From the NCBI GenBank assembly GCA_026398615.1, contig JAPLSN010000028.1, forward strand, positions 1 to 37,822: a DNA stretch of 37,822 nt, in the 5' to 3' direction. The DNA is from Spirochaetota bacterium. GTDB taxonomy: Bacteria > Spirochaetota > Spirochaetia > Treponematales > UBA12059. A model generated the notes under the pieces. That model was not told where the DNA came from and did not search any database. It saw nothing but the letters and a program-made list of their open reading frames with translations. Shown here in pieces: positions 31,974 through 37,822 of the stretch (positions within the stretch are counted from its first letter, which is position 1; every line of letters starts with the position of its first letter). Both the position numbers and the translations under genes were made by a program.

Positions 31974-32438
31974 TCATCCGTCGTCCACGTCGAACGCCAG
32001 CTCGTCGGCGAGCGCGACGCGCGCCTCCCCGGGGATCTTCCGCCACGCCGCGTCGTTCGTGAGGACGAGCCCCGCCCCGGCGACGCGGGCCGTCCCGAGC
32101 TGGAGGGCGTCCGCGAGCGAAAGACCGTGCCGGACGCGAAGCGCCGCGGCTTCCTCGGCGATGGCGACGTCCACCGGCTCGAGGACGATGGTCGTCGAAT
32201 CGGAGAGCAGGCGCCTGAAATCGTCGGCCAGCTCAAGGTCGCCGGCCGCGAGGGGGCGGGACAGGGCTTCCGTCCAGGCGATCACCGAGGCGACGACCCG
32301 GATCCCGCGCTCCTTCGCCAGGGCGAGGACAGCCGATACCGCGCGCCCCCGGCCTGCGGCATCCTCCACGAGGTAGACAAGGCAGGACGTGTCGACGAAG
32401 ACGACACTGACGCCATCGAGCAGGGATGGATCCATCAT
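31974..32438 (-). CDS. Solitary PIN-domain protein (VapC-like ribonuclease)
   Basis: The protein has 154 residues. Conserved acidic positions are visible: VVFVDTSCLVYLVED (first Asp, about residue 15), SVIAWTEALSRPL (Glu, about 54), HGLSLADALQLGTA (Asp, about 108) and LVLTNDAAWRKI (Asp, about 128). These form the Mg2+ site of PIN nucleases. VapC toxins normally follow an antitoxin gene by a few bases, but the 100 bases upstream on this strand hold none and the next gene is divergent polB. It may therefore be an orphan toxin, a housekeeping RNase or a decayed module. Starts at 32438 and 32435 are equally good. Confidence 0.8.
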   Translation of the reverse strand: MMDPSLLDGVSVVFVDTSCLVYLVEDAAGRGRAVSAVLALAKERGIRVVASVIAWTEALSRPLAAGDLELADDFRRLLSDSTTIVLEPVDVAIAEEAAALRVRHGLSLADALQLGTARVAGAGLVLTNDAAWRKIPGEARVALADELAFDVDDG

Positions 32439-32539
32439 CCCGAGAGTATACGCCGGGGTACCGCCCATGCGCCATGCGACCGGCGCATGTCGCCCTCCCC
32501 TCGCGCGCCCGCGGCTGCATCCGCTATGATGGCGCATAC

Positions 32540-34993
32540 ATGGAACGAGCAGAGGGCTTCCTGGTCCACGCATGGGCTTCGTACCCGGAAAACCGCATCT
32601 ACCTCTCGGGGCGTCTCCTCGACGGGAGGAGTTTCGGCGCGGCGGTATCATCGTGGAAACCCCGGGTCCACGTGCGTGCCGCCGACGTGGAGCGCGCGCT
32701 CGCGGCGCTCGGGCCGGCGGACGGCATGGCCGTGGATCGGGAATCAGGGATGGTTCCGTTCCGGGACGCGGCGCCCGGCGAAGGAGTCCGGGTCGGCGGT
32801 CCCGAATCAACGGCGTTCGCCTTCGCGTCCTTCCGGGCCGCGCGCCGGGCGGTCGATCGCCTGGCAGCGGCGGGCATCGAAACCTCAGGCGGCAGCGGCC
32901 GCCCGGCGGAAACCTTTCTCGCGGAACGCGGCATCTACGGACCGGTCCGTATCGAAGGTGCGGTCCGACCGGGCCGGCTCGTCGACCTCGTCTTTCCCGA
33001 ACCCGAACTCTCCCCCGCGCCCTTTTCGCGTCCGCCACTGGTCATACTCTCCATCGACATCGAAACGGACGAGCGCGTGCGGACCATACGCGCCGTCTCG
33101 GCGTTCGCCGCCTTCGAAAACCCGCAACGGGAGGTCGCGCCGCTTTCGTCCTGGGTTCGCGTCGTGGCGCCTCCGGCCATAGCCGCGGACGAGCGGACCG
33201 GAAACAAGGTTTTTGCTGCCGACGAACGCGAGCTCCTCGAATCCTTCGCGCGGGAATTCAGGCGGGTCGACCCCGACCTCGTCACGGGCTGGAACGTCAT
33301 CGAGTTCGACCTCGCCCGCCTCTCGGAACGATTCTCGGCGCTCGGCCTGGCCATGGACCTCGGTCGCGCGGAGGAAAGCGCGCGCGTCCTTTCCAACCCA
33401 TCGGGCAGGGTGACGGGCTTCTTCTGCCCGGGCCGCCAGGTCGTCGACGGGATGCGCGTCGCGCGATCCTCCCCCGATCGCCTCGAGGACCTTTCCCTCG
33501 AAACCGCGGCCCGCGAATTCCTGGGCGAAGGCAAGCTTGTCGCGTCGGCGGGAGACGACAAGCTCGCGGAGCTGGACCGGCTCTACGCATCCGATCCCCT
33601 CGCCTTCGCGCGCTACTGCCTCCGCGATTCCGAACTCGCGCTGCGCGTCCTCGCGGAATCCGGGCTCCTGGGCCTCACGGTGGCGCGGTCCTCGCTGACC
33701 GGGGCCCCGCTCGAATCGGCGTGGACGAGCATACTTTCCTTCGAGCGGCTCTACGCGATCGAACTCCGGGCCCGCGGCGTGCTGGCCCCCGACCGGGCCC
33801 CCGTCGCGGAGGTTTCCGGCGCATCGGGCGGCCAGGTGCTGGAGCCGAAAGCCGGCATGCACCGGAACGTCCTCGTGCTGGACTTCCGAAGCCTCTACCC
33901 TTCCCTCATGCGGACCTTCGACCTCGATCCCCTCGCGCTCGAACTGGCACGCCGGTCCCCTCCGGACGAAACCATGCGCGCGCCGAACGGCGCCGTCTTC
34001 GCCAAATCAGGCGGCATCCTCCCCGACGTGATAGCCCGCTACGCGGCCGAACGGGACGCCGCGCTGGCGCGCGGGGACGAGACGGCGTCCTACGTCTTCA
34101 AGATATTGCAGAATTCCTTCTACGGCGTCCTGGGCGCTTCCGGCTGCCGCTACGCGCGCACCGAGCTGGCGGGCGCGATAACCTCCTTCGGCCGCTGGTG
34201 CCTCGAGTTCGCGCGAGCCTGGTTCGAGTCGCGCGGACACGGGGTACTCTACGGCGACACGGACTCCGTCTTCGTCGAATCCGGCCTCGGGGACGATGCC
34301 GGGGCGGAAACCTTCAACCGGTTCGGGGCGAGCCTGGCGGAATCGCTCAACGCGGATCTCTCGGAATCGATCGCATCCCTCCACGGGGTCGAATCCTTCG
34401 TGCGTATACGCCACGAAAAAGCCTACCGGCGCTTTTTCCTGCCCAGGCTCCGGATGTCGGCGCCCGAAGGAAGCGAAACGGCGCGGGGGCGGGCCAAGGG
34501 CTATGCGGGGCTCGTCGTGGAAGACGGCGGCGCCAGCATCGAAGTGAAGGGCATGGAAGCGGTGCGCAGCGACGTGACGCCCCTGGCCCGCCGCTTCCAG
34601 ACTGAACTCCTCGCCCTCGCGTTCGGCGATGCGCCGCCTGAAGAGCTGGAGCGCTACGTGAAGGAGGAAGCGGCCGCCGTCAGGTCGGGCGGTCGCGACG
34701 CCGAACTCGTCTACCGCAAGCGCCTCAGGCGGCCGGCCTCATCCTACGTCGACATGGAACCGCCCCACGTCAAGGCCGCCCGGGCCCTTGGCTGGAAAAA
34801 CCGCCGCGGCACGGTGGAATATATCGTGACGAAGGAAGGACCGGTCCCCGTCAGCATGCTGTCATCGCCGCCGGACTACGAACACTACGTTTCCAGGCAG
34901 ATGGAACCCATCGCCCGGGCCCTGGCGGAATCCCTCGGGCTCGACGCTGCGCCCTGGTTCGGCTCGGGCGCCCAGCTCGAACTGGGGCTGTGA
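32540..34993 (+). CDS. polB: Family-B DNA polymerase (DNA polymerase II)
   Basis: The protein has 817 residues against 783 in E. coli Pol II. Exonuclease motifs are complete: ILSIDIETD (about 168-176), GWNVIEFDLARL (about 250) and YCLRDSEL (about 357). Polymerase motifs are A VLDFRSLYPSLM (about 447), B KILQNSFYGVLGA (about 521) and C LYGDTDSVF (about 570), with KGMEAVRSD and RRPASSYV downstream. It is thus an active proofreading polymerase, probably for repair or translesion restart; DnaE is the replicative enzyme. The ATG lacks a ribosome site; TATGAT at 32525-32530 is a -10 candidate nine bases before it. Confidence 0.95.
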   Translation: MERAEGFLVHAWASYPENRIYLSGRLLDGRSFGAAVSSWKPRVHVRAADVERALAALGPADGMAVDRESGMVPFRDAAPGEGVRVGGPESTAFAFASFRAARRAVDRLAAAGIETSGGSGRPAETFLAERGIYGPVRIEGAVRPGRLVDLVFPEPELSPAPFSRPPLVILSIDIETDERVRTIRAVSAFAAFENPQREVAPLSSWVRVVAPPAIAADERTGNKVFAADERELLESFAREFRRVDPDLVTGWNVIEFDLARLSERFSALGLAMDLGRAEESARVLSNPSGRVTGFFCPGRQVVDGMRVARSSPDRLEDLSLETAAREFLGEGKLVASAGDDKLAELDRLYASDPLAFARYCLRDSELALRVLAESGLLGLTVARSSLTGAPLESAWTSILSFERLYAIELRARGVLAPDRAPVAEVSGASGGQVLEPKAGMHRNVLVLDFRSLYPSLMRTFDLDPLALELARRSPPDETMRAPNGAVFAKSGGILPDVIARYAAERDAALARGDETASYVFKILQNSFYGVLGASGCRYARTELAGAITSFGRWCLEFARAWFESRGHGVLYGDTDSVFVESGLGDDAGAETFNRFGASLAESLNADLSESIASLHGVESFVRIRHEKAYRRFFLPRLRMSAPEGSETARGRAKGYAGLVVEDGGASIEVKGMEAVRSDVTPLARRFQTELLALAFGDAPPEELERYVKEEAAAVRSGGRDAELVYRKRLRRPASSYVDMEPPHVKAARALGWKNRRGTVEYIVTKEGPVPVSMLSSPPDYEHYVSRQMEPIARALAESLGLDAAPWFGSGAQLELGL

Positions 34994-36625: not shown

Positions 36626-36757
36626 AGCCATGCATGGATCATCGGGGATGAGCGCGGCGACGGGGTGTATCATGAACCGGGCCGGACGGGTCCTGGCTGT
36701 AGGATCGGGCTCTGGCGCGGCGGCGGGGCGGGCCATGGACCGGGCTGGACGGGGCCT

Positions 36758-36808
36758 GGCGAAGAAAAAACAGGGGTCGGCGGGGCGACTCCTGTTTTTT
36801 TCTTCGCC
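36758..36808. terminator. Long A/T-flanked hairpin, probably a bidirectional terminator
   Basis: Arms GGCGAAGAAAAAACAGG (36758-36774) and CCTGTTTTTTTCTTCGCC (36791-36808) are complementary apart from one extra T. The interior holds GTCG...CGAC. The T-run appears on both strands, but no gene reads directly into it from the left. Confidence 0.6.
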
Positions 36809-36978
36809 ACCCGTCATGTCGACATTCCACGGTCCAACGGCGGGCGAGTTCATTCACCAGCACGCCGCGCGCGTGCCGTGATGCTGGGGCATTGGAACGC
36901 GGTCGATCCATTTTGTTTTCCGCGTTACCCGAAGGCGGCATGTCGTGATACTGGGGCAGGTTTTTGCGTTTGGGGTAT

Positions 36979-37037: not shown

Positions 37038-37254
37038 CGCTCCGGTTTCGCGCAATCCCCGAGAAGCGATGCGCAGGACCGCCCCCAGCCCGAACCGGCG
37101 CGTCCGCTCCGGTTCGGGCTGGGGGCGAACGAGGCGGAAACCCAGGTCGTAGTACCGATTGCCCGGGGCGTCGTCGCCCCGAACGGCCGACCGGAGGAGC
37201 CGACCGACGCTGCCCCAGCCTCGTGGGCCTGCTACTTTTTTCTGTAGCGCCTTT
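37026..37254 (-). pseudogene. Remnant of a second FGE/C-type-lectin C-terminal module
   Basis: The frame is open from just after a stop near 37254 to TGA at 37026, without a start codon of its own. Its middle reads GWGSVGRLLRSAVRGDDAP then GNRYYDLGFRLVRP. This is the same C-terminal strand pattern as in the intact neighbour (SWGS...R...R...P......GFR[LV]VRP), so it is the tail of a related gene. After LVRP the frame continues for about 30 residues of unrelated sequence that run through a hairpin. I infer a duplicated target gene that lost its body. It could also be a cassette for recombination with the neighbour, as discussed under the findings. Confidence 0.6.
37080..37127. repeat. Perfect 19-bp inverted repeat at the end of the remnant's lectin module
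   Basis: Arms at 37080-37098 and 37109-37127 are exact complements (CGCCCCCAGCCCGAACCGG on the + strand, left arm), with a ten-base loop. On the - strand it begins inside the LVRP codons, directly at the end of the variable-type module. Confidence 0.9.
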
Positions 37255-37265
37255 CAGGCGCAGAA
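37240..37265. repeat. Hairpin directly after the stop of the FGE-like gene
   Basis: GCGCCT-TTC-AGGCGC at 37247-37261 is extended by TTCT/AGAA across a three-base bulge. On the gene's strand it begins two bases after the TGA and is followed by A-run, not T-run, so it does not look like a terminator for this gene. Confidence 0.75.
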
Positions 37266-37266
37266 C

Positions 37267-37822
37267 TCAGGGGCGCACCACCCGAAAACCGACATTGTCG
37301 TCCTGGTTGAGCGGATTGTTGCTGTACCGGCCAGCCACGCGGCAGCGAGACGCAAGGCTGCCCCAGCTGCCGCCGCGTGCGACGCGGTTCGTGCCCGAAG
37401 CTGCCCCCTGCGGGTTGTTCTGGCTTCCGCCTGCATACGCGCCGTACCTGTCCCAGCACCACTCCCAGACATTCCCGTGCATGTCGTACAGGCCATACCC
37501 ATTGGGGGCAAAGCTCCCCACCTTCGTCGTCGTTTGCCGGTACCCGCCCTTCGCATTGCCGTTGTACGGATAGTTCCCATCGTAGTTGGCTTGGCTCGTC
37601 GTGATGTTGTTCCCCGTGCTGAAAGGGATCGTCGTCCCGGCGCGGCAGGCGCATTCCCACTCGGCCTCCGTCGGCAGGCGGTAGCCGTTCGCGCTCCAGT
37701 CGCAGACGACAGCGTCCCAGCTGGAGGGGCTCGACGTCGGCACCGCGCCCCAGGAACCAGGGTCGGTCTTCCCGTTCAGGCTGTAGGCGGGCTTCATCCC
37801 TTCCTTGATCGATCGCTTGTTG
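37267..37822 (-). CDS. FGE-sulfatase/C-type-lectin-fold protein, N-terminus outside the window; possible DGR target
   Basis: At least 185 residues are visible, ending at TGA 37267; the frame stays open to the window edge (NKRSIKEGMKPAYS...), so the real start lies beyond. GYRLPTEAEWECACRAGT, VGSFAPNGYGLYDMHGNVWEW and RVARGGSWGS...VGFRVVRP are the conserved blocks of the SUMF1/formylglycine-generating fold. The first of the two catalytic Cys of true FGE (GGS-Y-x-C) is Ser here, so an FGE reaction is unlikely. Non-enzymatic members display variable ligand-binding surfaces, as in Treponema TvpA. The C-terminal segment has the form of a DGR variable region. Most likely a secreted or surface binding protein; export signals cannot be seen. 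Confidence 0.8.
   Translation of the reverse strand, partial: NKRSIKEGMKPAYSLNGKTDPGSWGAVPTSSPSSWDAVVCDWSANGYRLPTEAEWECACRAGTTIPFSTGNNITTSQANYDGNYPYNGNAKGGYRQTTTKVGSFAPNGYGLYDMHGNVWEWCWDRYGAYAGGSQNNPQGAASGTNRVARGGSWGSLASRCRVAGRYSNNPLNQDDNVGFRVVRP
37282..37375 (-). other. Putative DGR variable region (VR) in the FGE-like gene
   Basis: It runs from the GGSW codons to GFR at the 3' end of the gene. At the positions variable in known lectin-fold targets, codons are AGC, CGC, GGC, TAC, AGC, CTC, GAC, GAC and GTC. All can be derived from AAC or ATC by changing A only. Two further positions (CTT, TCT) do not fit AAC. Interspersed fixed codons (W, A, R-V-A, N-N-P, G-F-R) are as expected. In this GC-rich genome codons ending in C are common anyway, so the fit is suggestive, not proof. 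Confidence 0.45.

Follow-up and report, generated by a model that had tools for sequence, protein, structure and literature searches.

Does the FGE-like gene that runs off the end of a spirochaete contig carry a tail written by a diversity-generating retroelement (DGR), and, if so, is this tail still being rewritten? The gene lies at the end of the window, i.e. the whole analysed stretch of 37,822 bases (contig C31), which belongs to a 3.38 Mb assembly of 43 contigs with 99% completeness. Further inside the window, at 32426-34993, an 855-codon open reading frame resembles a family B DNA polymerase, as judged from motifs recognised by eye. The features at the contig end are:

37267..37822, minus strand: FGE-like gene, non-catalytic and TvpA-like
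37682..37822, minus strand: 141-base stretch that recurs without change at the end of contig C8
37267..37377, minus strand: variable region A (VR-A), from RGGSW to the stop codon, with one other copy in the own genome

The stop codon of the FGE-like gene is found at 37267-37269, and the frame remains open for 184 codons up to the contig end, which removes the 5′ part; this upstream part was not found in the assembly. The encoded protein matches Pfam FGE-sulfatase (PF03781, E 9e-35), and its closest solved structure by PDB sequence match is TvpA of Treponema denticola (2y3c, E 1.4e-27), with human FGE ranking behind (E 1.8e-23). In an alignment with human FGE (2aft), serine occupies the position of the first catalytic cysteine, while the second is a cysteine, so that the gene does not have both copper-binding residues of a catalytic FGE (C336 and C341 in the human enzyme). 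The loss of the first catalytic cysteine, which the earlier note had read from the letters alone, is hence correct. The final 37 codons read RGGSWGSLASRCRVAGRYSNNPLNQDDNVGFRVVRP and display the C-terminal skeleton RGGSW...GFRVVRP. The Pfam and PDB matches bear out the earlier assignment and, together with the replaced cysteine, support a predicted TvpA-like, non-catalytic FGE/C-type-lectin fold with its variable region at the C-terminus.

A plain explanation for such a tail would be ordinary paralogy within the FGE family, in which RGGSW..R.A.R...P...GFR represents the normal conserved core and the NNC codons simply reflect the codon usage of a GC-rich genome. The skeleton is indeed family-wide, and third-base C reaches 44% in a paralogue. 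The NNC pattern alone is therefore weak evidence, and the caution on frequent third-position C that accompanied the first reading was fair. Instead, the case for a DGR origin of VR-A is carried by the comparison of copies. The only further copy in the own genome, at C14:96546-96656, differs from the C31 tail by 12/12/2 mismatches at codon positions 1/2/3 (25 codons). Replacements at codon position 1 and/or 2 affect 14 codons, 13 of which have an unchanged third base; the chance of this is about 3e-5 at the third-base mix of the paralogue, 0.0009 with agreement set at 0.5 and 0.008 with 0.6. Between the RGGSW motif and the CAG codon, over which fixed-codon identity was scored, the fixed codons GCG TCT, TGC, GTG GCT, CGG, CCG and CAG are the same in both copies, third base included. 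This confirms the alternation of fixed and variable codons originally described for the gene end.

Drift, in contrast, changes third bases most: between the constant part of the C31 gene and its C41 paralogue, mismatches amount to 26/31/57 by codon position (130 codons), and third bases make up a different share of the mismatches here than in the VR-A pair (Fisher p 4e-5). In addition, 17 real same-type templates from within the order have adenines at 19 of 29 variable columns, compared to 11 of 76 columns without change (p 8e-7). VR-A hence behaves like a DGR target in that its differences are derivable from template adenines and its fixed codons are conserved including third bases. Further differences between the two copies concern five third bases and a single codon (CGC/ACC) at which the templates of relatives mostly lack A; therefore, either the copies do not derive from precisely the same template or drift has set in since. 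As no parent template of VR-A was seen, its adenine specificity is deduced via the templates of relatives and one paralogous copy.

A second tail, of a class other than VR-A, is located directly downstream:

37119..37220, minus strand: variable region B (VR-B), detached tail GWGSVGRLLRSAVRGDDAPGNRYYDLGFRLVRPQ, which pairs with C41:66938-67039

No in-frame start codon was found for VR-B. Its partner is the C-terminal end of the C41 gene, which encodes a caspase-PEGA-FGE protein, and the two differ by 12/11/3 mismatches by codon position (29 codons, p 3e-4). The reversed codon-position profile is accordingly observed in two independent sequence pairs, VR-A/C14 and VR-B/C41. This profile disfavours ordinary paralogy, which we consider very unlikely, and an origin of VR-A by a DGR is well supported. 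For the class-B tail of C41, no cognate template was found in the own genome; at this locus (C41:66938-69500, L030), a 20-bp palindrome follows about 110 bases past the stop codon.

The copy on C14 (L031) looks like a dead fragment. It has only GTCGC(A/T)CGCGGC...TGAGTT in common with C31, with unrelated flanks, and its VR-A tail is joined out of frame, at the junction GTCGCTCGCGG, to a preceding reading frame that was recognised by eye as AAA-ATPase-like. It was rejected as the template of VR-A, since its variable codons are TAC/GAT/TTC and not AAC, and since its differences from C31 include sites at which neither copy has A. Conceivably, it was not the whole gene that moved but the tail alone, as a cassette of its own (about 120 bases) delivered by ectopic homing of template cDNA to C14 and to the site before VR-B. 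The unrelated flanks, the out-of-frame position on C14 and the location of VR-A directly upstream of a class-B tail are consistent with such a transfer; however, the C14 junction can plausibly be explained by microhomology in ordinary illegitimate recombination, and there are two cases only. We regard it as improbable that variable-region units are mobile and that cDNA of the missing FGE-type DGR was inserted beside the C14 ATPase fragment and upstream of an older class-B tail. If true, mobile units would mean that a gene can receive a tail of a new class.

If VR-A was written by a DGR, the next question is whether the writing machinery still resides in the genome. The earlier note had proposed a search for a reverse transcriptase (RT) with the motif [LIV]GxxxSQ, an avd-like gene and a template repeat matching 37282-37375. 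The first two are present on contig C3 in a DGR whose components are an RT with the motif IGNLTSQ, a bAvd (PF22296, E 1.3e-18), a template rich in AAC codons and a target that matches PEGA and, weakly, Lcl_C. The third was not found in the assembly, where the only template is that on C3. This template differs from its local target mainly at adenines (21 of 23 mismatches), encodes GFGSGWLWSSSQNNNNN... and is of the Lcl-type, unrelated to the FGE tails; used as a query, it retrieved its own Lcl-type target as the sole match. As a member of another class, it was rejected on sequence as the writer of VR-A. The sampled allele of the C3 target (C3:604-754, L029) contains a premature TAG in place of the template's AAG, i.e. 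a change of adenine to T, as well as one codon more than the template, and looks like a null variant.

An FGE-type template was sought by several routes. In the 99%-complete assembly, it was found by blastn neither with the variable region nor with the predicted template. The fixed-codon pattern, with three mismatches allowed, retrieved only C31 and C14 from the own genome, neither of which is a template. Its extended form gave the same two loci among 394 genomes of the order, including the own one, and the pattern had no match in viral contigs. A looser pattern produced 53 matches in genome contigs and four in viral contigs, which were dismissed as chance matches without an RGGSW frame, with the exception of a single locus (L143, Spirochaetes bacterium GWB1_60_80) that represents the same gene as in genome G020. 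This G020 is the sole member of the own family with a close full-length VR-A-like tail, and no such template was found there. The RTs of G020 and of G011 were rejected as DGR RTs, being of the group II intron type (GTPQGGP).

In the order, the predicted template had matches in 82 of 394 genomes, which is no census of variable regions because the AAC-built query favours templates. Many of these matches are genuine templates of the form RGGSWNNN...NRNNN...GFR, and a good number lie beside an open reading frame with a DGR RT motif. In six template/target pairs, template adenines account for 75 to 100% of the mismatch sites; examples of the profiles by codon position are 10/9/1 and 11/5/0, the latter in a pair (L044) with 16/16 mismatches at template A.

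Of the earlier proposal that the tail is a DGR target, possibly a remote one, the first part holds in view of the VR-A/C14 signature, while a current remote target did not stand because no matching template was found. As the sole template in the assembly is of the Lcl-type and none matches 37282-37375, VR-A is probably a variable region orphaned by the loss of an FGE-type DGR. The strongest competing reading is that of a live remote target, for which an FGE-type template would be present in the organism and missing from the assembly, served by an RT of its own or by the C3 RT and Avd in trans. Such a scenario would profit from the division of the assembly into 43 contigs, the position of the C3 DGR at a contig start and the presence of an intact-looking RT and Avd. 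Moreover, the C31 gene and its relative on C8 both break off at the same 141 bases, which are likely an overlap or branch of the assembly graph and give this rival real weight. It is at odds with the completeness of 99%, with the failure of both blastn and the tolerant pattern to uncover an FGE-type template in the assembly, and with a C3 template that is unlike the FGE tails and has its own Lcl-type target as sole partner. Overall, a live target seems possible but rather unlikely. The missing template is no proof of loss, given the 43 contigs and a gene that is itself cut at a contig end; current activity at VR-A, on the other hand, is not supported.

For the orphan region, the following history is probable. 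A template rich in AAC codons, about RGGSWNNNASNC.VANRNNNNPNNQNNN.GFRVVRP, would have been reverse transcribed with random bases opposite its adenines, and the mutagenized cDNA would have replaced the tail of the gene by mutagenic retrohoming. The outcome would be one of many possible surfaces, presumably displayed for ligand binding on the TvpA-like C-type-lectin/FGE fold. Template and probably also the dedicated RT cassette would now be absent, either since the DGR was lost or since the target was acquired alone. With the template absent, VR-A is therefore probably frozen.

Two inverted repeats lie close to the tails:

37080..37127, no strand assigned: perfect 19-bp inverted repeat with a 10-nt loop, overlapping the 3′ end of VR-B
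37247..37261, no strand assigned: short inverted repeat GCGCCT-GAA-AGGCGC, located 5 bases past the VR-A stop codon

The smaller one is a possible homing hairpin. In phage DGRs, a GC-rich hairpin of 7-10 bp with a 4-nt GRNA loop is found 4-34 bp downstream of the variable region (PMC3240598); the VR-A hairpin, with a 6-bp stem and a GAA loop, is shorter than this consensus. The tails on C14, C41 and C3 are likewise followed by long inverted repeats, which may act as terminators. Separately, a dispersed palindromic repeat is located at 36640-36890, with the arms TGGCGAAGAAAAAA / TTTTTTCTTCGCCA at 36757-36809. Roughly a dozen genomic sites match it, one of them some 500 bases downstream from the C41 tail and another about 3 kb from the FGE gene on contig C25.

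How does this locus compare with known systems? Within the same genome, the C3 DGR likewise combines an AAC-rich template with a local target, yet this template belongs to another sequence class than VR-A. Other DGRs from the order (L042, L044, L052, L053 and more) possess FGE-type templates, RGGSWNNN...NRNNN..GFR, whose local targets differ mostly at adenines. Since the synonymous bases of their fixed codons are unlike those of VR-A, none of the same-order templates found is its parent. The C41 gene, which joins caspase, PEGA and FGE domains and ends in the class-B tail, is similar to the targets with signalling domains and FGE from cyanobacteria and multicellular bacteria (PMC7517822, PMC10907252); for the C41 gene, no cognate template was found.

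The closest parallel is TvpA of T. denticola (PDB 2y3c), which shares with the VR-A gene the fold, the C-terminal place of the variable region and the RGGSW...GFR skeleton. In T. denticola, leftover DGR targets without template or RT have been reported, and in strain SP32 the leftover target fits a DGR type other than the one now carried (PMC4891356). Orphan DGR targets are thus already known from this species, and VR-A most likely adds another, a DGR-written tail that could be confirmed from raw sequence and lies far from any RT. It also shows how orphan targets can be recognised without a template, by the reversed codon-position divergence between copies. In contrast to T. denticola, the host of the C31 gene comes from another spirochaete family, the template of its resident DGR is of the Lcl-type and not of a second TvpA type, and its genome holds two classes of orphan FGE tails. 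The C31 gene adds a further spirochaete lineage in which TvpA-type tails appear to have outlived their DGR in the presence of a resident DGR of another type; this is relevant to the frequency of DGR turnover and to the question of whether frozen variants stay in use.
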